Shown here: piece after piece, positions 1-45,114 of the stretch
Numbering within the stretch: the first letter of the stretch is position 1
Layout: the number at the start of each line of letters is the position of its first letter
DNA from: Thauera linaloolentis 47Lol = DSM 12138
Lineage (GTDB): Bacteria > Pseudomonadota > Gammaproteobacteria > Burkholderiales > Rhodocyclaceae
DNA: 52,754 nucleotides
NCBI RefSeq assembly: GCF_000310205.1
Contig: NZ_AMXE01000019.1
Location: 1 to 52,754, forward strand
Direction of reading: 5' to 3'
Translations under genes and position numbers: made by a program
Notes under the pieces: model-generated
What the model was told of the DNA's origin: nothing
Seen by the model: only the letters and a program-made list of their open reading frames with translations
Database searches by the model: none

Positions 1-110
1 CCCCGCGTGCGTCCTTCATCAGGGTCCGCAGCCATCAAAGTGCTGCAAGAGTGACCGTTTGTAGTCTGGCCAGTCCGCACCTTGTTGTTATTGCATTGTT
101 TGCAGCTCAT
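1..110 (-). CDS. Partial small ORF at the left edge, unknown
   Basis: An open frame starts with ATG at 110 on the minus strand and stays open to the window edge (about 36 codons). It begins MSCKQCNN, so it carries a CxxC pair that could bind metal. It lies directly downstream, in array direction, of the attC after the HEPN gene, where the next integron cassette gene would be expected. No family is recognised and the frame is short and low in GC, so it may be the start of a real cassette gene or chance. Confidence 0.3.
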   Translation of the reverse strand, partial: MSCKQCNNNKVRTGQTTNGHSCSTLMAADPDEGRTR

Positions 111-189
111 TCGGGGGAAAGTTGTTCAGCAAGGGAAACGTCGTCCACTCTGTGGGCCAGGGGAAGCTATTGCTTGACAGATGGGGAAG

Positions 190-261
190 CCCTTGCGTGA
201 CGCTTCAGCGGACGGCAAAATGCGCAGCGTTTTGACGGTCCGCTGCAAGCGCTTGTTAGGC
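190..261 (-). other. attC: attC recombination site after the HEPN cassette (degenerate 3' core)
   Basis: On the minus strand the site opens with the R'' core GCCTAAC (261-255), which overlaps the TAA stop of the HEPN gene. It then folds into an imperfect hairpin in which AGCGGAC pairs with GTCCGCT and CAAAA with TTTTG, with an unpaired base in the 5' arm as is usual for attC. The closing R' core is only GCAAGGG (196-190) instead of GTTRRRY, so the far end has decayed or been rearranged. The R'' core is complementary to the (G)YTAGGC at the start of the HEPN cassette, as expected for one cassette. Confidence 0.65.
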
Positions 262-693
262 ATTTTCGTGAAGATACTTTGATAAAAATGCGACAAATTC
301 TTTGAGCTCTTCCAGCGGGATAACTGCATAAAAACCGTTCCGGTCACGGAATGAGAAGGCAGTGACTCGCCCGGCACGATGGACAGGATCGATCTTGAAG
401 TGCGCGACTGCATTACGTAGCCTTCGAACCAGTTGCTTAAGGTTGGGTTGGTGCTCGTGACCTTGGTCGCACTTGCCAAAGCTCATTATGGACGTAGGTG
501 AAATACCCCAATCCGCTATAGATGCGAAAGCGGTGCTTGGGATTTTCTCAATGAGCAACGCCTCCTTTGGCACTACTAGGAGGCCGAGAAGGCAGTTAAT
601 CAGGAGAGTTGCGTCAAGAGGGCCCTCGTACTCGGTGGCGAGGGTGAGCGTTCGCTCCATGAAGCTGCGTGCGAAATCCGGATCGTATTCCAT
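256..693 (-). CDS. HEPN-domain protein, integron cassette gene
   Basis: This is a 145-residue, probably soluble protein. Near its C-terminus it has RNAVAH (R93 to H98), the Rx4H signature of HEPN domains, followed by a beta-rich tail. It resembles the small stand-alone HEPN proteins of the pEK499_p136 type found on plasmids and integrons. HEPN proteins are often metal-independent RNases in toxin-antitoxin or defence systems, but no nucleotidyltransferase (MNT) antitoxin partner lies next to it, so RNase activity is inference. The start is ATG at 693 with an AGGAA-type ribosome binding site upstream. The stop overlaps the R'' core of its attC, which is typical cassette packing. The IS element begins about 20 bp upstream and may separate the gene from the integron promoter. 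Confidence 0.75.
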   Translation of the reverse strand: MEYDPDFARSFMERTLTLATEYEGPLDATLLINCLLGLLVVPKEALLIEKIPSTAFASIADWGISPTSIMSFGKCDQGHEHQPNLKQLVRRLRNAVAHFKIDPVHRAGRVTAFSFRDRNGFYAVIPLEELKEFVAFLSKYLHENA

Positions 694-715
694 AGTGCGG
701 TTCCTGATTGCCTAG

Positions 716-738
716 CAGGCCGATGCAAAAATCTCAGG
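716..738 (+). repeat. Left terminal inverted repeat of the IS5-family element
   Basis: The sequence starts CAGGCCGATGCA and matches the complement of the right end, CAGGGTGATGCA, at most of the outer positions. It marks the left boundary of the insertion sequence. Confidence 0.6.
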
Positions 739-868
739 CCCCAGGTCCAGGCTGACGCTCATCATTCGGTGTCTCATGACTTCATCCCCCGAAATGGATT
801 CTCAGTTCCGTTTTGATGCCTGTCGAGCGGGCCGGGGAATAGGCTTTCACCGGATTTCAGGCTTCGCC

Positions 869-1963
869 TCATGCCGTACGCCCCGCGTCCTGCAATTTCG
901 CAATTCGCAGCAGGTTATACGCCGCTGCCGACAGGTAGGCGGCGATCTGGGTTCGGGCTTGGCCGATGAAACGAGTCTTTCTCATTCCGCCCACCGTCTT
1001 CAGCCAGCCGAAAATCTCTTCAACCCGCTTTCGTTTGCGCTGGCTGACCTTGTAGCCCTCGGTGCAGGTCGTCCGTCCATCGAGGCCCGGTGTCTTGCGT
1101 CCTTCAATGCGGGCGATATGCGGCTTGATCTTGTGCTCGCGCAAATGTTGGACGAAGTCCTTCACGTGGTAGCCCTTGTCGACCCCCAGGGTTTTGGGAT
1201 GAATCCGGCGGCGCCGGGCGCGGGTGAGCAACTGGCGGGCGGCTTTGTGTTCGGCCATCGTCGCATCGGTAATGAGCAGATCAATGCACAGGCCACTGCG
1301 ATTCTCCATCAGCGCATGGCGGCCGTAGCTGAGCTTGGCCGGCTGGCCGTTGCCTTTCCTCATGAGCTTCGCGTCGGGATCGGTTGTGCTCCGGTGAGTG
1401 GCGTTGGAACGCTTCTCGCCCTTGAAATCCACCATGCCGGTACCGTCCCCGCCGGACTTGGGCGGCTCGTCATCGTCCTTGCGCTTGAAGCTCTTGAAGG
1501 ACGCCCAGGCGTCGATCAAGGGGCCATCCACGGTGAAGTGATCGGACGAGAGCAGCTTGTCCTTGCGGGCCAGACGCACCACTTCATCAAAGAAGCGTCG
1601 GGCGATGTCGGTCTCGACCAATCGCTCGCGCAGGCGGCTGAAATTGGATTGATCCAATCCGCCCGACTCCAGGTCCAGATCGAGAAACCAGCGAAACAGC
1701 AGGTTGTAATCGAGTTGCTCGCAGAACTGCCGATCCGAGCGCACCGAATAGAAAGCGATCAGCAATTGGGCCTTGAGCAGTCGCTCCGGCGGAATCGACG
1801 GTCGGCCGCCCTTGGCGTAGAGCCCATCGAGCTCCGCCGAAATGGCCGACAGCGCCGAGTCAGCCAGTTGCTTCACCCGTCGAAAAGGATGATCGGCCGG
1901 AATCCGGGACTCGACCGAGAAAGAGTGGAACATCGAGGACGGGGGATCTACTTCGCCGCGCAT
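869..1963 (-). CDS. IS5-family transposase
   Basis: This is a full-length transposase of 364 residues, within the usual size for the family. An N-terminal DUF772-type domain (roughly residues 20-110, with the conserved RLLKAQLLIAFYSVRSDRQ region) is followed by a DDE domain. Visible catalytic-type acidic positions are in FTVDGPLIDAW, in the TLGVDKGYHV segment, and the glutamate in RVEEIFGWLK near the C-terminus, which matches the IS5 YREK-like region. There is no internal stop or frameshift, so the enzyme could be active. It is transcribed on the same strand as the surrounding cassettes. Confidence 0.88.
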   Translation of the reverse strand: MRGEVDPPSSMFHSFSVESRIPADHPFRRVKQLADSALSAISAELDGLYAKGGRPSIPPERLLKAQLLIAFYSVRSDRQFCEQLDYNLLFRWFLDLDLESGGLDQSNFSRLRERLVETDIARRFFDEVVRLARKDKLLSSDHFTVDGPLIDAWASFKSFKRKDDDEPPKSGGDGTGMVDFKGEKRSNATHRSTTDPDAKLMRKGNGQPAKLSYGRHALMENRSGLCIDLLITDATMAEHKAARQLLTRARRRRIHPKTLGVDKGYHVKDFVQHLREHKIKPHIARIEGRKTPGLDGRTTCTEGYKVSQRKRKRVEEIFGWLKTVGGMRKTRFIGQARTQIAAYLSAAAYNLLRIAKLQDAGRTA

Positions 1964-2021
1964 CGGTGCTGTGCCTGGGGTTCGGGAGATACGGATAGGA
2001 CAGATGGGTGGTCGGATCGTT

Positions 2022-2043
2022 CACTGGATTCTGCATCACCCTG
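2022..2043 (-). repeat. Right terminal inverted repeat of the IS5-family element
   Basis: Read on the minus strand it begins CAGGGTGATGCAGAATCC and mirrors the left end. The outermost G overlaps a GTTAAGC core-like heptamer in the flanking integron sequence. Confidence 0.6.
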
Positions 2044-2049
2044 TTAAGC
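2043..2049 (-). other. attC R''-like core truncated by the IS
   Basis: On the minus strand this reads GCTTAAC, which fits RYYYAAC, and it follows the stop codon of the upstream cassette gene by one base. The stem and R' half of the attC that should follow are missing, because the IS starts here. Cassette 2 opens with TTAGAC, which predicts GTCTAAC, so the core is not the expected exact partner. Confidence 0.4.
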
Positions 2050-2050
2050 C

Positions 2051-2497
2051 TCAACTCGCGGGTCTTTTCGGTTCGCTCGACTTTTCAATAGCTGGTGGCT
2101 TGTCTTGTACCAAGCTGGACAGCCAAGACGAAAGTTGGTCCTTGGCAACGGCAAAGAGAACTATCAGAAGAAGCGAATAAATGATGTTGCCGACAATTCC
2201 TGTGCCAACTGCATACCAAAAGGATTCACGCTTCATCTTGGATTGGAGCTGACTTGCCTCGCCTTCAAACTGCTTTCGCAGAATTTCTTCAGCGGACCGC
2301 GTATGCGCGATCAAGCTTCCAGGGGCGAGCAGTGTCTGCTCTGTTGCTTGCACGGCAGCAGCGTCCAAAGGAGGGGTTTTGCCAAGAGTCAGCGATTCAA
2401 ATTGTTGGCGATAGATGCTGAATGCCAGATCCCGCACGCAATCGCTTTTGTTGTTGCGAACGCAGTGGTCAGCAATGATTTCAAAGGGGGTTGCCAC
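2051..2497 (-). CDS. Single-pass membrane protein, unknown, cassette gene
   Basis: This is a 148-residue hypothetical protein. A soluble N-terminal part (about 1-90, probably helical) is followed by one hydrophobic segment at about 94-117 and a short charged, proline-containing tail. The start is GTG at 2497, because an AAGGAG ribosome binding site lies 7 bp upstream and overlaps the TAA stop of the preceding gene. The two genes are therefore translationally linked and form a two-gene cassette. No known domain is recognised. The coding sequence is much less GC-rich than the chromosomal genes from 4.1 kb onward, consistent with acquisition. A partner role with the neighbouring DUF4760-like membrane protein is inferred from linkage only. 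Confidence 0.6.
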   Translation of the reverse strand: MATPFEIIADHCVRNNKSDCVRDLAFSIYRQQFESLTLGKTPPLDAAAVQATEQTLLAPGSLIAHTRSAEEILRKQFEGEASQLQSKMKRESFWYAVGTGIVGNIIYSLLLIVLFAVAKDQLSSWLSSLVQDKPPAIEKSSEPKRPAS

Positions 2498-2508
2498 TTG
2501 CTATCTCC

Positions 2509-3000
2509 TTAGAACCGATAGCTAGAGTGGCGCTCACGCGACTGCCAAGTCCGCGCCAGCTGAGTTAGCTGTACATAGAGACTCGCCCGCGATCGACTTT
2601 GGGACTCGTATATGAAGCGTTTGGCAACCTCGTAGAAGTAAACAACTCGGTCACCAAGTCTTGAATACGCGATGTCCTCGTCGTAGACACCTGACAGAAC
2701 TCCAGTTGCCAACGTTTCAAGGAATTCGAGTGCAGCTGTGATTTCGATGGCTTCCTTGGCGTTCACTATGAGTTCATCACCATCACCCCTCGCTGCTCGA
2801 TAAAGGAGCTTGTCGATAGTTGCTGATATTTCGGCCGGTAACTGTACGGCTCGAAGAGTGCGCTCCATCTGACTAGCCTTCGCTTCCCGAAGATATGTTC
2901 TTCGAAGAATTGAAAGTTGCTGGGCCAAGTAGAGAGTCGCGAGCGCGCTGAGCGCTGAGATCATCAGGGCCATGGCAGATATGAGGAACTCTGGGTACAT
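2509..3000 (-). CDS. DUF4760-like membrane-anchored protein, cassette gene
   Basis: The protein has 163 residues when started at ATG 3000 (MYPEFLIS). An upstream in-frame start would run into the attC and is less likely. A single N-terminal membrane segment covers about residues 3-24. It is followed by a helical cytoplasmic region whose motif (LEFLETLATGVLSGVYDED, then a YEVAKRFIYESQ helix) resembles the DUF4760 family. The function of that family is not established. The gene is the first of a two-gene cassette and its stop overlaps the ribosome binding site of the next gene. It begins about 40 bp after the attC core that ends the preceding cassette. The family call is moderate. Confidence 0.6.
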   Translation of the reverse strand: MYPEFLISAMALMISALSALATLYLAQQLSILRRTYLREAKASQMERTLRAVQLPAEISATIDKLLYRAARGDGDELIVNAKEAIEITAALEFLETLATGVLSGVYDEDIAYSRLGDRVVYFYEVAKRFIYESQSRSRASLYVQLTQLARTWQSRERHSSYRF

Positions 3001-3036
3001 GATGATCCTTCGGTTGGCGATTTGGGCGGTCTTGAG

Positions 3037-3094
3037 GTCTAACACTCAAGTTAAGCGGCGGGCATAGCCCGTCCGCTTGAATGCCTTGTTAGGG
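3037..3094 (-). other. attC: attC recombination site, complete
   Basis: On the minus strand the 58-bp site begins with CCCTAAC (R'', 3094-3088) and ends with GTTAGAC (R', 3043-3037), a perfect GTTRRRY core. Between them AAGCGG pairs with CCGCTT and CGGGC with GCCCG around a TAT loop. One unpaired A in the 5' arm matches the extrahelical base that sets strand choice by integron integrases. The R'' core complements the GTTAGGG at 3369-3363 that opens the same cassette. This orients the array as minus-strand. Confidence 0.85.
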
Positions 3095-3337
3095 CTAGAT
3101 CTTTTCATAGACATCGAATCTTCCACTGTTTTCGATGCGCACCCATTTAACGCCTGCTATATGGTTGGCTGCAACAGCCGCTTTAAACGCTTTGCCAAAA
3201 TTACGAGGATCATGACGCTTAATGAGTTGCCGCCAATGGTCACCAAATATCGAAACTAGGCCGGCCTGCGCACCGACAGTCATAAGACCGATTCGCTGAT
3301 TAATTAAATCTAACTCTTGCTGGATCATGTTATGCAT
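3095..3337 (-). CDS. Small unknown protein, first cassette gene
   Basis: This 80-residue protein starts at ATG 3337 and its TAG stop abuts the attC core. It looks soluble, with an N-terminal helical part (MHNMIQQELDLINQRIG) and a C-terminal part with KWVRIENSGRFDVYEKI. I recognise no family. It occupies the first cassette position next to attI, where expression from an integron promoter would be strongest and where the most recently captured cassette normally sits. Base composition is near 45-50% GC, unlike the chromosomal genes. Confidence 0.55.
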   Translation of the reverse strand: MHNMIQQELDLINQRIGLMTVGAQAGLVSIFGDHWRQLIKRHDPRNFGKAFKAAVAANHIAGVKWVRIENSGRFDVYEKI

Positions 3338-3362
3338 TGGAAGCCGCCTCGAATTTTCGTGA

Positions 3363-3495
3363 CCCTAACAGTGTAGTAGACGGAACGGGCCGGCTAGTGA
3401 GTAGACGGAATCCACATATCGCCCCGCCCAAAATATTTTATTAGCATCAATCAAAATTGCTTCAGTACCATTGGCAACGACACTAATCCAGCCCC
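3363..3495 (-). promoter_or_regulatory. attI: attI-like recombination site and integron promoter region
   Basis: This intergenic stretch lies between the start of the intI remnant and the first cassette. It ends in the core GTTAGGG (minus strand, 3369-3363). Two direct copies of AGTAGACGGAA stand at 3375-3385 and 3400-3410, 25 bp apart, in the place where class 1 attI has its accessory integrase-binding direct repeats. An AT-rich patch (about 3431-3460) could hold the cassette and intI promoters. I found no LexA box. Confidence 0.5.
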
Positions 3496-3765
3496 ATGAC
3501 CTTGTCAAACCACACCGTCACGCTAGCCCGATTCTGGCGTAAGTGCCTGATCATCCTCGCGGAATCAGGCGTGAAGACATCGGCTGTGGCTGGTATGTGC
3601 GCCACGCCGAAGCCTATGCCGAGGCTGCTCGCGGTCGGCGGATCGCCATTCATACGGCGGCCATCGTGGAGCCTTGGAAGAGCTGGGCAGGGTAGACGGA
3701 ATAGCGGCGTGGCAATTCACGCAGGCGGTGGATGCGGTGCGCCACCTGTTGATGATGGTGGGGCG
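3496..3765 (+). pseudogene. intI: Integron integrase, N-terminal remnant (two frameshifts)
   Basis: Three overlapping frames together give the N-terminal, core-binding part of an integron-type tyrosine recombinase. Frame one (from ATG 3496) gives RFWRKCLIILAESGVK. Frame two (from about 3585) gives WYVRHAEAYAEAARGRR. Frame three (about 3680-3765) gives LGRVDGIAAWQF followed by TQAVDAVRHLL. The segments are in the right order for IntI, and the two shifts fall near 3585 and 3670-3680. Only about 90 of the usual 320-340 residues remain. The whole catalytic domain (RHRY residues and the IntI-specific insert) is absent. It is divergent from the cassettes, the classic integron layout, so this integron cannot supply its own integrase. 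Confidence 0.75.
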
Positions 3766-4100
3766 CCTGCGACTGCCGAGGCGGATTGCGACGACGAGGC
3801 GAGCCTCAAAATCGGTAATGCCGACATCGGTGAGGCGGAACTTGCCGCCATGCTTGGCGAAGCACTCGACCGGTGATCGCAGAGCCGGCCTGTTGCAGCT
3901 TGGCCGCCTGGGCCGCACACGTATACTGACGCCCGCAACATTCTGGGCCGAGGTACTGAATTCTTGAGCAAGACCGACCATCCTGCGAACATTCAGCGAA
4001 ACCGGGACATCGAAGCCGGCTTTACTGCTTGCCAATCATTTTGAAGCGGGCTTTGAATCGGCTCTGGCTCGCGGGTCGATCATCAACAGGAAACCTCCCC
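3766..4100. other. Intergenic stretch between intI remnant and selB
   Basis: No intact gene is seen in these 335 bases. The rest of intI is not recognisable in any frame, so a deletion probably removed it. On the minus strand around 3880-3795 a short protein-like run (FAKHGGKFRLTDVGITDFEA) lies inside a frame without a convincing start or family and could be a gene remnant. selA, a common neighbour of selB, is not here. Confidence 0.4.
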
Positions 4101-6059
4101 ATGCTCATCGGCACCGCCGGCCACATCGACCACGGCAAGACCACGCTCGTCCGCGCGCTGACCGGCGTGGACACCGACCGCCTGCCGGAGGAGAAGCAAC
4201 GCGGCATCACCATTGAGCTGGGCTATGCCTATGCGCCGCTGGCGGGCGATGGCGAGGGGCGGACGCTGGCCTTCATCGACGTGCCGGGGCACGAGAAGTT
4301 CGTGCCGACGATGCTGGCAGGCGCCAGCGGCATCGACTTCGCGCTGCTGGTGGTGGCGGCCGACGACGGCGTGATGCCGCAGACACGCGAGCACCTCGCC
4401 ATCGTCCATCTGCTCGGCATCGGCCGCGGGGCAGTAACGATCACCAAGTGCGACCGCGTGCCGCTGGAACGCATCGAGGCGGTGCGGGCCGAAGTGGCGG
4501 CGCTGCTGGCGCCGACCCGGCTGGCGGCGGCGCCGGTGTTCGCACTGTCGGCACAGACCGGAGAGGGCGTGGCGGCGCTGCGCGCGCATCTCGACGCGGT
4601 CGCCGCGGAGGAGGGCGCGCGCAGCGTGCAGGGCGGCCTGCGCCTGGTGGTGGACCGCCGCTTCGCCATTGCCGGCGCAGGCGCGGTGGTAACCGGCACC
4701 GTGCATGCCGGCCGGCTGCACGTGGGTGACACCGTGTTGCTGGCGCGGCCGGGCGGCGAGATCCGCGAACTGCGGGTGCGCGGGCTGCACGTCAACAACC
4801 GCAAGGCCGACGTCGGTGGCCCGGGCAGCCGCTGCGCGGTGAATCTGGCCAGCATCGAATACCGCGACATCGAGCGCGGCGACTGGCTGCTGTCGCCCGG
4901 CCCGGTGCGCGCCACCGATCGCCTCGACCTGCGCCTGCATCTGTTGCCGGACGTGCGGCGCAAGCTGGGGCAATGGACAGGCACGACGCTCCACCATGCC
5001 GGCGGCCACGCAATGGCACGGCTGGTGCTGCTCGATGGCGCGCTGGAAGCCGGCGGACTGGCGGGCGGGGACGACGGCCTGGTACAGGCCGTGCTCGACC
5101 GGCCGCTGTTCGCCTGTTGCGGCGACCGCATCGTGATCCGCGACGCGGCGGGGCGCGAGACCCTGGGCGGAGGCACGGTGCTCGACCCTTTCCCGCCCGC
5201 CCGCCACCGCCGCCGGCCGGAACGCCTGGCGTTGCTGGCGGCGCTCGAACACGAGAATGCGGACGTCCGGCTGCGCGCCCAGGTCGATACCGCGGCCCAC
5301 GGTGCGGATGCGGCTGAACTCACCACCGCCCACAACCTGCACGGCATGGATGTGCAGCACTGGCAGGCGCGCCTGCCGGGCGTGCAGGCCATCGCCACTA
5401 AAACCGGCATCCGGCTGTTTTCGCCCGCGGCCTGGGAAGCGCTGGCCGAACGCATTCTCGGCCGCCTGGCGGCGCACCACGAGGCCTTTGCCGACGAGCC
5501 GGGCGTGGAGCGCGAGCGCCTGCGCCGGATGTGCGCGCCGCAACTGCCCCCCGCCGTGTTCCTCGCCCGCCTCGAAAGCCTGCTGGCGGACGGGCGTCTG
5601 TGCCGCGCCGGCTCGGCCTGGCATCTGCCGGCGCATACCGCCGAGCTTTCACCCGCCGAGCGGCTGCGCGCCGACGGCATCCTGCAACGCCTGCGCGACG
5701 GCGCCTTCGATCCCCCCTGGGTGCGGGACATCGCCGCGAGCTGTGCGCTGGAAGAAGCCGAGGTCCGCCGCCTGCTGCGCCGCGTGGCGATGCGCGGCGA
5801 GGTGTTCCAGATCATCCGCGACCTGTTCTATGCGCGCGCGACCGTGGCGCAGATGAGCGGCATCGTCCGCGAACTGGCCGCCGGCCACGACGGCCGCATC
5901 CGCGCGGCCGACTTCCGCGACCGCATCGGCGGCGGGCGCAAGCGGGCGATCCAGATCCTGGAATTCTTCGACCGCGTCGGCTTCACCCGCCGCGTCGGCA
6001 AGGGCAGCCAGCGCGCCCACATCCTGCGCGGCGAACCGCCCGCCGCCGAGGACGCATGA
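4101..6059 (+). CDS. selB: Selenocysteine-specific elongation factor SelB
   Basis: SelB carries Sec-tRNA to the ribosome at UGA codons that are followed by a SECIS element. The protein has 652 residues from ATG 4101, chosen because [15 protein letters not shown] is the family's standard N-terminus and AGGAAA precedes it. Upstream in-frame codons are not conserved. GTPase motifs are GHIDHGKTT (7-15), DVPGH (60-64) and TKCD (115-118). Beta-barrel domains follow, and the C-terminal part contains winged-helix repeats that bind the SECIS RNA. The selC gene follows 34 bp downstream on the same strand, so the dedicated factor and its tRNA are paired. SelA, SelD and any selenoprotein gene are outside the window or not visible. 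Confidence 0.96.
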
Positions 6060-6093: not shown

Positions 6094-6190
6094 GGAAGAG
6101 AGGCGTTCCCCGGTGGGGCGACTGGTCTTCAAAACCAGGTGGGGCCGTCAGCCGGTCCCAGGTGGGTTCGACTCCCATTCTCTTCCGCCA
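6094..6190 (+). tRNA. selC: tRNA-Sec (anticodon UCA)
   Basis: The 97-nt sequence begins GGAAGAG and ends CTCTTCCGCCA, giving the long acceptor stem typical of tRNA-Sec with CCA encoded. The anticodon loop is CTTCAAA with TCA at 6129-6131, closed by CTGGT/ACCAG. A long variable arm follows, and the T arm has GTTCGACTC. The layout closely follows E. coli selC. It lies just after selB and 20 bp before the next gene. selC is a common integration site for genomic islands, but no integrase follows it here. Confidence 0.96.
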
Positions 6191-43008: not shown

Positions 43009-45114
43009 ATGCCGATCCGCCAGCGCCACGCCACTGCGATGCTGTTGCCTCTGATCGCCTGCATCATGCCGGGCTGGGCAAGTGCCGAGGATACCTTCTT
43101 CCAACCGCTGCCAGTGGTGTTGAGCGCATCCCGGCTGCCGCAGTCCTTGCAGGATACACCCGGCGCGGTCACGGTCATCGACGCCGATCTGATCGGGGCC
43201 ACGGGCTACCGCGAGCTCCCGAGGCTTTTCCGCCTCGTGCCCGGCATGCAGGTCGCCCAGGAGCGCGGCAACCAGCAGCGGGTGACCTATCACGGCCTCG
43301 GCTCGGACCACCCGAACCAGATGCAGGTGCTGATCGACGGCCGCTCCGTCTATTCGCCGCATTATTCCGGCGGCGCGAACTGGCGCGCTCTGCCGGTGGC
43401 GCTCGAGGACATCGAACGCATCGAGATCGTCCGCGGCTCGAATTCCGCAACCTATGGCTCGAACGCCTTTCTCGGCGTGGTCAATCTCATCACCCGCCAT
43501 ACTGGCGCCGAAACCGGCAGCTCGGTCAGCGCGCGTATCGGCAACCATGGCATCGCCGACGTGAGCGGGCGGGCAGTACTGCGCACCGGTGCGCTCGGGC
43601 TGCGCCTGAGCGTGCAGGAACAGCGCGACGACGGCTGGTCCGGACTGCGCGACGACCAGCACCTTCGCGCCGTCAATCTGCGCGGCGACCTGGATCTGGG
43701 TGCGACCGATGCGCTGGAATTCTCCGCCAGCTACAGCACGGCCAGGCTGGGCGAAGGCTATCCGGACACCCTGTTCGACGGCAGCGGCCTCCGCGACCTG
43801 AAGCAACGGGACTACACGGTGCATGCAACCTGGCGGCACATACCCTCGTTCGACGAGGAATGGTCCCTGTCGTGGTACCGCAACCGCGAGCACACCGAAG
43901 ATGCCTGGCATGTCGATTCCTGGGCCAACTGCCCGACCGCGGAACCTACCGTGGGCGCGCTCTGCGCCAAGCTGCTGGATGCGCCGCGGCGCGTCGGCAG
44001 GGTCGACAACAACCGCAATACCCTGCGCGACAACATCGCGCTCCAGCACCGCTTCTCGGCCACCGGCGATCTGCGCATGCTGTGGGGTACCGAGTGGCGC
44101 TACGACCGCATCGAGTCGGATTTCCTGTACGAAAGCGGCCACCGCCCCTCGCAGCAGGAATGGCGCCTGTTCGGCAATGCCGAATGGCGGGCCGCGCCCG
44201 AATGGCTATGGAACTTCGGCGCCATGGCCGAACACATCGAAGGCGACCGCGTGCGCTTCGCGCCGCGCATCTTCCTGAACTGGCAGCCGCAGGACAACAT
44301 GACCTGGCGCATGGGGTTTTCGCGCGCCTGGCGCCAGCCCACGCTGCACGAACGCTGGACGGACGTGCTGGTGTCCGTCGACGGACTCGGCCCGGTGAAC
44401 CAGCGCTACACCTCGAACCCCCGCCTCCGTCCCCAGCAGATCGACGCCTGGGAGATCGGCTACCTGGGCAGTACGCCCTGGGGAGGGCTGCTCGACGTGC
44501 GCGTATTCGACGAGCGCATCGACGACTACATCCGGCGCGCGCCGATTGCGATCCCCGCGCCTTTCGTGCCGAGCGACGCGCTCCATGACGCGACCGGCGG
44601 CGACCCCTTCCTGATCCATCACGTCATGGGCTCCACGCAGTGGACCAACATGCCCGGCAGGATCCATCTCCTCGGCCTGGAATACCGCCTCTCGCTCAAG
44701 CCCCGCGCGAGCACGACGCTGCTGTTCACCCACACCCTCATCCAGCGCAGCGCCAGCAACCCCGCGGTGCGGCGCAGCGTCGCCCCCTACACGGCAACGC
44801 TGACCTGGATGGAAGAAACCGGCCCCTGGCGGTCGACGATGAGCCTGTTGCGCATGGGGCCGCTGGAGGCCGCCTCCGGCGACGTGCCCGGCCTGCGCTA
44901 CACCATGCCGGCCTATACCAGCCTGGACTGGAGCATCGCCCGCAGCCTGCGTGCCGGCAGCCGGCCCGTGGAGGTGCGCCTGACGGCGACGAACCTGCTC
45001 GGCAACCACCAGGAACAGGCGCACAAGCCGCTGCAGTGGATGCCGCACCAGCGCAACCGCGCGCCGAACAAGACCGACCGCCAGGTGTTCCTGGCGGTGC
45101 ACATGGCGTTCTGA
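43009..45114 (+). CDS. TonB-dependent outer membrane receptor
   Basis: The protein has 701 residues from ATG 43009, chosen because it opens a signal peptide (cleaved near GWASAED). The longer frame does not. The TonB-box-like LPVVLSASRLPQ is followed by a plug (about 45-150: DTPGAVTVIDADLI, QVLIDGRSVYSP, IERIEIVRGSNSATYGSNAF) and a barrel ending in VHMAF. There is no STN domain, so it does not signal by itself. The plug sequence is of the BtuB/FhuE-like group with R-G-S-N-S-A, and the substrate is not evident. It is divergent from oxyR and lies 130 bp before the protease gene. Confidence 0.9.
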   Translation: MPIRQRHATAMLLPLIACIMPGWASAEDTFFQPLPVVLSASRLPQSLQDTPGAVTVIDADLIGATGYRELPRLFRLVPGMQVAQERGNQQRVTYHGLGSDHPNQMQVLIDGRSVYSPHYSGGANWRALPVALEDIERIEIVRGSNSATYGSNAFLGVVNLITRHTGAETGSSVSARIGNHGIADVSGRAVLRTGALGLRLSVQEQRDDGWSGLRDDQHLRAVNLRGDLDLGATDALEFSASYSTARLGEGYPDTLFDGSGLRDLKQRDYTVHATWRHIPSFDEEWSLSWYRNREHTEDAWHVDSWANCPTAEPTVGALCAKLLDAPRRVGRVDNNRNTLRDNIALQHRFSATGDLRMLWGTEWRYDRIESDFLYESGHRPSQQEWRLFGNAEWRAAPEWLWNFGAMAEHIEGDRVRFAPRIFLNWQPQDNMTWRMGFSRAWRQPTLHERWTDVLVSVDGLGPVNQRYTSNPRLRPQQIDAWEIGYLGSTPWGGLLDVRVFDERIDDYIRRAPIAIPAPFVPSDALHDATGGDPFLIHHVMGSTQWTNMPGRIHLLGLEYRLSLKPRASTTLLFTHTLIQRSASNPAVRRSVAPYTATLTWMEETGPWRSTMSLLRMGPLEAASGDVPGLRYTMPAYTSLDWSIARSLRAGSRPVEVRLTATNLLGNHQEQAHKPLQWMPHQRNRAPNKTDRQVFLAVHMAF

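Follow-up and report, generated by a model that had tools for sequence, protein, structure and literature searches.

Evidence for a decayed chromosomal integron beside selB in Thauera linaloolentis that retains attI and part of its cassette array

The window analyzed here (52,754 nt) is the whole of contig NZ_AMXE01000019.1 (C19) from base 1, one of the 220 contigs in the genome assembly of Thauera linaloolentis 47Lol = DSM 12138; Thauera sp. Sel9 and T. butanivorans NBRC 103042 were compared as relatives from the host genus. Ahead of selB the window holds, from left to right, the right end of an IS1111-type insertion sequence, a cut attC with its cassette ORF, an IS5-type element, further cassette ORFs with a complete attC, an attI, and the broken 5' end of an integron integrase gene (intI). 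The flanking chromosome carries selB (4101..6059, plus strand; relatives in 15 of 29 genus genomes) and, behind it, tRNA-Sec (6094-6186). The names of the chromosomal genes (selA, selB, recG, ubiC, etc.) were read from translations, and tRNA-Sec alone was assigned by Rfam.

The intI remnant occupies 3496..3788 on the plus strand. As the query for tblastn we used the intact IntI (454 aa) that is encoded on contig C114 of the same genome, in an integron between ubiC and recG (genes read from translations). Residues 1-31 mapped to 3496-3588, residues 33-61 to 3591-3677 (E 1.3e-7), and residues 53-91 to 3647-3763, all on the plus strand, with an E value of 5.8e-18 for the pieces with residues 1-31 and 53-91. 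This confirmed the initial annotation, which had read an integrase remnant in three frames. At the DNA level, attI and the remnant together (3366-3788) were 77% identical to C114:3394-3824. A search with the integron integrase profile TIGR02249 gave no match on C19, and Pfam detected nothing in the three plus-strand ORFs of 3496-3967. The Pfam result is blank because the remnant consists only of the N-terminal extension of long IntI proteins, which has no Pfam match above the cut-off. An intact intI, as found in a complete integron, is absent from C19: the remnant lies in three frames, and the recombinase part is missing.

Homology to IntI ends at 3788, and homology to T. butanivorans starts at 3817, where comparison with that genome revealed the C-terminal tail of a ribbon-helix-helix gene (3817..3876, plus strand). 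The T. butanivorans ORF matching the tail is an RHH_6 protein (E 5.6e-22), and that copy of the gene is itself frameshifted. Since the front of the ribbon-helix-helix gene is missing as well as the recombinase part of intI, the stretch between them (3789..3816) is a deletion junction, at which intI is joined to the tail of the ribbon-helix-helix gene. As assembled, the sequence supports inactivation of the integrase through small indels and a deletion, in line with the frameshifts and deletion that had been proposed for it.

The remnant corresponds to residues 1-91 of the C114 protein and belongs to the N-terminal extension of the long, fusion-type integrases. The extension was matched in 36 of the 80 loci that were kept from 521 relatives. 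In all 36 the match started by query residue 26, and the alignment of long IntI proteins was made from 33 of them plus L007; L046 and L063, where the stretch is not in one frame, and L062 were left out. Records of the extension (residues 1 to ~140; L038-L084) come from Thauera, sulfate reducers, SAR324, Lentisphaerales, and Kiritimatiellae. Neither of two long IntI proteins that were scanned had a Pfam domain above the cut-off in the extension, and in the Sel9 homologue Phage_int_SAM_4 begins only at residue 143. Passages of Nemergut et al. 2008 (PMC2426708) describe a fusion group of IntI (clade 15) that is ~120 residues longer, and we infer that the long Thauera IntI is the fusion group described there.

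As in a complete integron, an attI adjoins the intI remnant. Together with the junction core of the first cassette (GTTAGGG, 3363-3369), it spans 3363..3424 on the minus strand. The attI region proper (3366-3424), suspected in the initial annotation, aligned with six other integron platforms and was identical to the C114 attI at 51 of 59 positions (86%). Between C19 and C114, the leader was 55% and the intI codons were 81% identical. The idea that attI is more conserved because it is still used was rejected, since the excess was not significant for C19 and C114 (51/59 versus 257/341; Fisher p 0.066) or for two other pairs (p 0.14 and 0.40). The window has three copies of the 10-mer GTAGACGGAA, at 3376 and 3401 (both in attI) and at 3692, a count reached in 0 of 100 shuffles. 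Its third copy (3692-3701) is located inside intI codons, and GTAGACGGAAT stands at the corresponding place of intI in L007, L039, L040, and L161; this copy is perhaps a further protein-binding repeat, or perhaps only a conserved coding stretch. A consensus scan of 3300-3850 for a Pc promoter detected no sigma-70-like site.

To find attC sites, we used a covariance model of 28 sites (24 hand-picked from 51 scan candidates and 4 from other contigs of the host), which was built without any window site and, with only 11 base pairs, is mostly sequence driven. Its first-ranked match in the window was the complete attC of the first cassette (3037..3094, minus strand; 48.0 bits, E 1.8e-9), also the sole window site in a core-plus-stem scan. 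Ranked second was a minus-strand match at 190-261 (33.9 bits, E 3.9e-6), the attC of the HEPN cassette. Both sites had been predicted, but the latter differs from its description: it is cut at 195 by the end of the IS1111-type element, so that 196..261 comprises the R'' core and both inner arms and no R' core. The paired cores that had been reported (TTAGGG with CCCTAAC and CTAGGC with GCCTAAC) are present in the sequence. A third match, at 44227-44284 (21.3 bits, E 0.0035), is probably due to chance.

In five shuffles of bases 1-4100 the core-plus-stem scan gave 0 matches each, and in five shuffles of the rest of the window it gave 0, 0, 0, 0, and 4; the scan is insensitive, as it overlooked C54 sites that the covariance model detected. 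Genome-wide, the model gave at least 13 matches with E of ≤1 among 150 scored candidates of 8061, distributed over C44 (5), C114 (4), C54 (2), and C19 (2). Direct searches with the model revealed three attC on C54 and none on C130. The window thus harbors two attC without a working integrase, one complete and one cut, in line with the at least two of CALIN or pseudo-integrons. They form a minus-strand array that diverges from the plus-strand intI remnant, which supports the divergent layout proposed in the initial annotation. Neither outcome that would have spoken against it, a lack of integrase similarity in the frames or attC scores at the level of shuffled sequence, was observed.

All cassette ORFs lie on the minus strand. 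The first (3095..3337, 80 aa) resembles DUF1413 weakly (PF07205, 19.3 bits versus a cut-off of 25). Beyond the complete attC follows a DUF4760 ORF (2509..3000; PF15956, E 3.7e-16 for 2509-3045), the start of which we set at the ATG at 3000, while the listed ORF starts at 3045. The adjacent ORF (2051..2497, 148 aa), to which Pfam assigned no family, is probably the second gene of the DUF4760 cassette; between it and the IS5-type element no attC was seen with the covariance model. On the far side of that element, an ORF of 145 aa (256..693) belongs to the HEPN pEK499_p136 family (PF18736, E 3.4e-28). The 5' core of this cassette (710..715, minus strand) reads CTAGGC for TTAGGC and pairs with the R'' core at 255-261. 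No PADLOC model matched any of the four window cassette proteins, and among 10 cassette proteins the one match was a C54 protein (PDC-S07). For two of the proteins encoded by the window cassettes, no relative on plasmids was found at E 1e-5.

The array is split at the junction before the HEPN cassette by a minus-strand element at ~716..2043, which we take to be IS5-type and the ends of which were set by comparison with three genus copies. Its transposase gene (869-1963; PF05598 and PF01609) had been overlooked in the initial annotation, which had otherwise correctly placed attC and cassettes on the strand opposite to intI. In the three genus copies, the 4-base flanks are equal in two (L014, CTAA; L015, TTAG) and unequal in L016 (CTAA, TTAG). 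The window copy is flanked by TTAA and CTAG, without a clean target duplication, and because these flanks are unequal they point to rearrangement or decay after insertion. Insertion of the element inside an attC hairpin was ruled out, since the three genus copies show that what looked like hairpin arms belongs to the ends of the element itself.

Bases 1..195 (plus strand) are the noncoding right end of the IS1111-type insertion sequence, with the transposase side beyond the contig start. They were identical to C114:1-195 at 190 of 195 positions (97%), and because this match stops at 195, the attC at 190-261 has no R' core of its own. On both contigs, the DNA flanking the shared stretch consists of attC arms that lack an R' core. 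The left end of this element was found on C130 and C54 (97% over 290 bases), both directly behind an R'-type core; the core on C130 is a 7-base reading only, with no model attC there. Two right ends at attC arms and two left ends at R'-type cores thus place the insertions at one attC end. Candidate subterminal inverted repeats, GGGACTTCCCC at the left and GGGGAAGCCC at the right, matched by eye with a one-base gap.

Bases 1-85 gave an 82% match to a stretch of a Polaromonas plasmid (L023) that follows the gene of an IS110-family transposase at a distance of ~165 bp, and the last 15 bases of the element are identical in a Pseudomonas plasmid. A total of 51 plasmid records carried related DNA, 48 from Pseudomonas, 2 from Polaromonas, and 1 from Priestia. 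In 25 other genomes, a search with the left end yielded nothing beyond short weak matches. As judged from L023, the element has a longer noncoding region downstream of the transposase, which is present nowhere in one piece in the host genome. With the Polaromonas protein as the query, transposase pieces were detected on C44, C156, C130, and C54, all of them incomplete; the C44 fragment matched PF02371 (Transposase_20; E 7e-28), and the assembly lacks a complete transposase for any of these copies. The DEDD_Tnp_IS110 profile alone did not pick up the pieces of the IS1111-type element, retrieving instead different IS110 elements on C156 and C13.

Elements of the IS1111 type that target attC were reportedly described by Tetu and Holmes in 2008 and by Post and Hall in 2009. 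The window element resembles the IS1111-attC group, as presented in passages of PMC11187229, in its IS110/IS1111 type, the noncoding region downstream of the transposase, and insertion at an attC end, but the window contains the right end only, and the transposase pieces on other contigs are incomplete. For the group, the same source gives subterminal inverted repeats of 11-13 bp with extensions that measure 7 bp on the left and 3 bp on the right, and in its passages on ISKpn4 and ISPst6 the elements target one attC end. The position of our element agrees with these published elements. Both IS5 and IS110 (IS1111 group) transposases are reported in cassette arrays in a passage of PMC11089894.

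The chromosomal setting was compared in 16 selB loci from the 15 genus genomes. SelA was located ≤80 bp upstream of SelB in seven of them. The remaining nine comprised the host genome, T. butanivorans, and Sel9, four partial genes, and two loci without SelA inside the 1,500 bp examined. In the host, selA lies on C54 together with an attC array ending at the left end of the IS1111-type element, and C19 runs from the right end of such an element through the array to selB. The array probably continues through the IS1111-type copy onto C54; no contig spans the element, and this link rests on gene order. If it is right, the three C54 attC also belong to the array. C130 (ubiC), which has a left end of the element, and C114 (recG), which has a right end, probably form a second contig pair. 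In 21 of 25 ubiC loci recG adjoins ubiC, and the exceptions are the host genome, Sel9 (contig starting 1,144 bp upstream), T. butanivorans, and a locus truncated by the end of its contig. In T. butanivorans and Sel9, the DNA examined between selA and selB contained neither a match to the C19 platform (E 1e-6) nor an attC detectable with the covariance model (E 5).

TIGR02249 gave six matches in the host genome, two of them above the cut-off (C114 and C44; 462 bits each, no stops). The C44 locus (L008, 10518-16441) is a third integron. Its IntI is open but short (344 aa), four or more of its attC are strong, and its last cassette closes with the R'' core of an attC, after which a truncated IS110-type transposase follows. 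In Sel9, C45:337-717 (L157) comprises an attI and intI codons 1-84 with one stop, beside genes that lie near the C44 integron in the host genome. No model attC was present in the 9 kb taken around it, and it adjoins a contig-start ORF that by reading resembles a tyrosine recombinase. This second fragment indicates that intI was lost with attI kept at two loci. Separately, a ~54-bp repeat ending in TTGTTAGsC flanks a YefM/YoeB-like gene pair (by reading) on C130 (L035; 4610-4663 and 5317-5371). The same repeat, ~95% identical, was found in T. butanivorans (L159, 10003-10058), where the selB 5' end has a duplicate that is broken into two fragments, one on each side of the repeat.

The features at selB have the same order and orientation as those on C114, which supports their identity as an integron. 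Weak matches such as the 21.3-bit one at 44227-44284 (E 0.0035) do occur in the window, but with frames at E 5.8e-18, sites of 48.0 and 33.9 bits, and the C114-like arrangement, it is scarcely credible that the stretches resembling an integrase and attC arose by chance or represent repeats of another kind and that there is no integron. Another explanation starts from the related intact gene in the host genome: attI and the intI 5' end could be a partial copy of the recG-side integron, brought by recombination to a place where a full integrase never stood. The Sel9 C45 fragment, without a model attC beside it, would be a second case of this kind. However, the remnant was 76.5 to 76.9% identical to the intI genes of C114, Sel9, and T. 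butanivorans alike, while the C114 gene was ~89% identical to the other two over the codons matching the remnant. These values mean that it is not a recent copy of C114. Moreover, the remnant heads its own array in the normal orientation, and we regard such a transfer as very unlikely.

We conclude that the locus is, with high probability, a decayed chromosomal integron platform between selA and selB, which lost its long-type integrase, kept attI and the array, and received insertion sequences. According to this model, the platform end of a chromosomal integron lies between the selA and selB genes of a Thauera species. Its fusion-type integrase was inactivated by small indels and by deletion of the whole recombinase part, and attI and the divergent array were retained. 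In the attC of the HEPN cassette, the IS1111-type element sits immediately before the R' core, and the IS5-type element sits at the junction before this cassette. The order of the decay events is our reconstruction.

The cassettes had been described as frozen. This part of the initial annotation is not upheld as stated, since the two open full-length IntI genes elsewhere in the genome could act in trans, and the remaining complete attC may still recombine in this way. Trans action by an integrase is stated for integrase-less arrays in general in a passage of PMC12444791. Insertion sequences at cassette ends, absent from the initial annotation, immobilize part of the array at least as much as the loss of the integrase does. 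A further-reaching scenario, which we think unlikely, is that the selB-side attI has been retained, along with the intI 5' end, because the intact long IntI at recG uses it in trans as a second landing site, so that one integrase would serve two chromosomal arrays, while an RNA-guided IS1111-type element would cap cassettes in both and decide which of them move.

Passages of Nemergut et al. 2008 (PMC2426708) class almost a third of intI genes as pseudogenes and report more than one intI in over one fifth of lineages; the main text names neither Thauera nor Azoarcus. The case described here resembles the pseudogenes in those passages in death by frameshift and deletion, in the presence of more than one intI per genome, and in the long fusion-type IntI. 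It differs from them in that the whole recombinase part is deleted and a fused N-terminal piece is left with attI. Similarly, it is like the CALIN described in passages of PMC12444791 in having an attC array without an adjoining working integrase, at a different place in the genome from an intact intI. Unlike these, the C19 array keeps a recognizable attI and intI 5' end, so that its origin as a full integron is visible.

In summary, this is a real decayed chromosomal integron, ordinary in kind and a well-preserved example of a known decay; pseudogenes of IntI, IntI of the long fusion type, genomes with several intI, and IS1111 elements that target attC have all been published. It gives a clear picture of the decay of a chromosomal integron, with the integrase lost from the chromosomal side, attI surviving, and the cassettes capped by insertion sequences. 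Because a related intact integron is present between ubiC and recG in the same genome, trans activity on the dead platform is directly testable.
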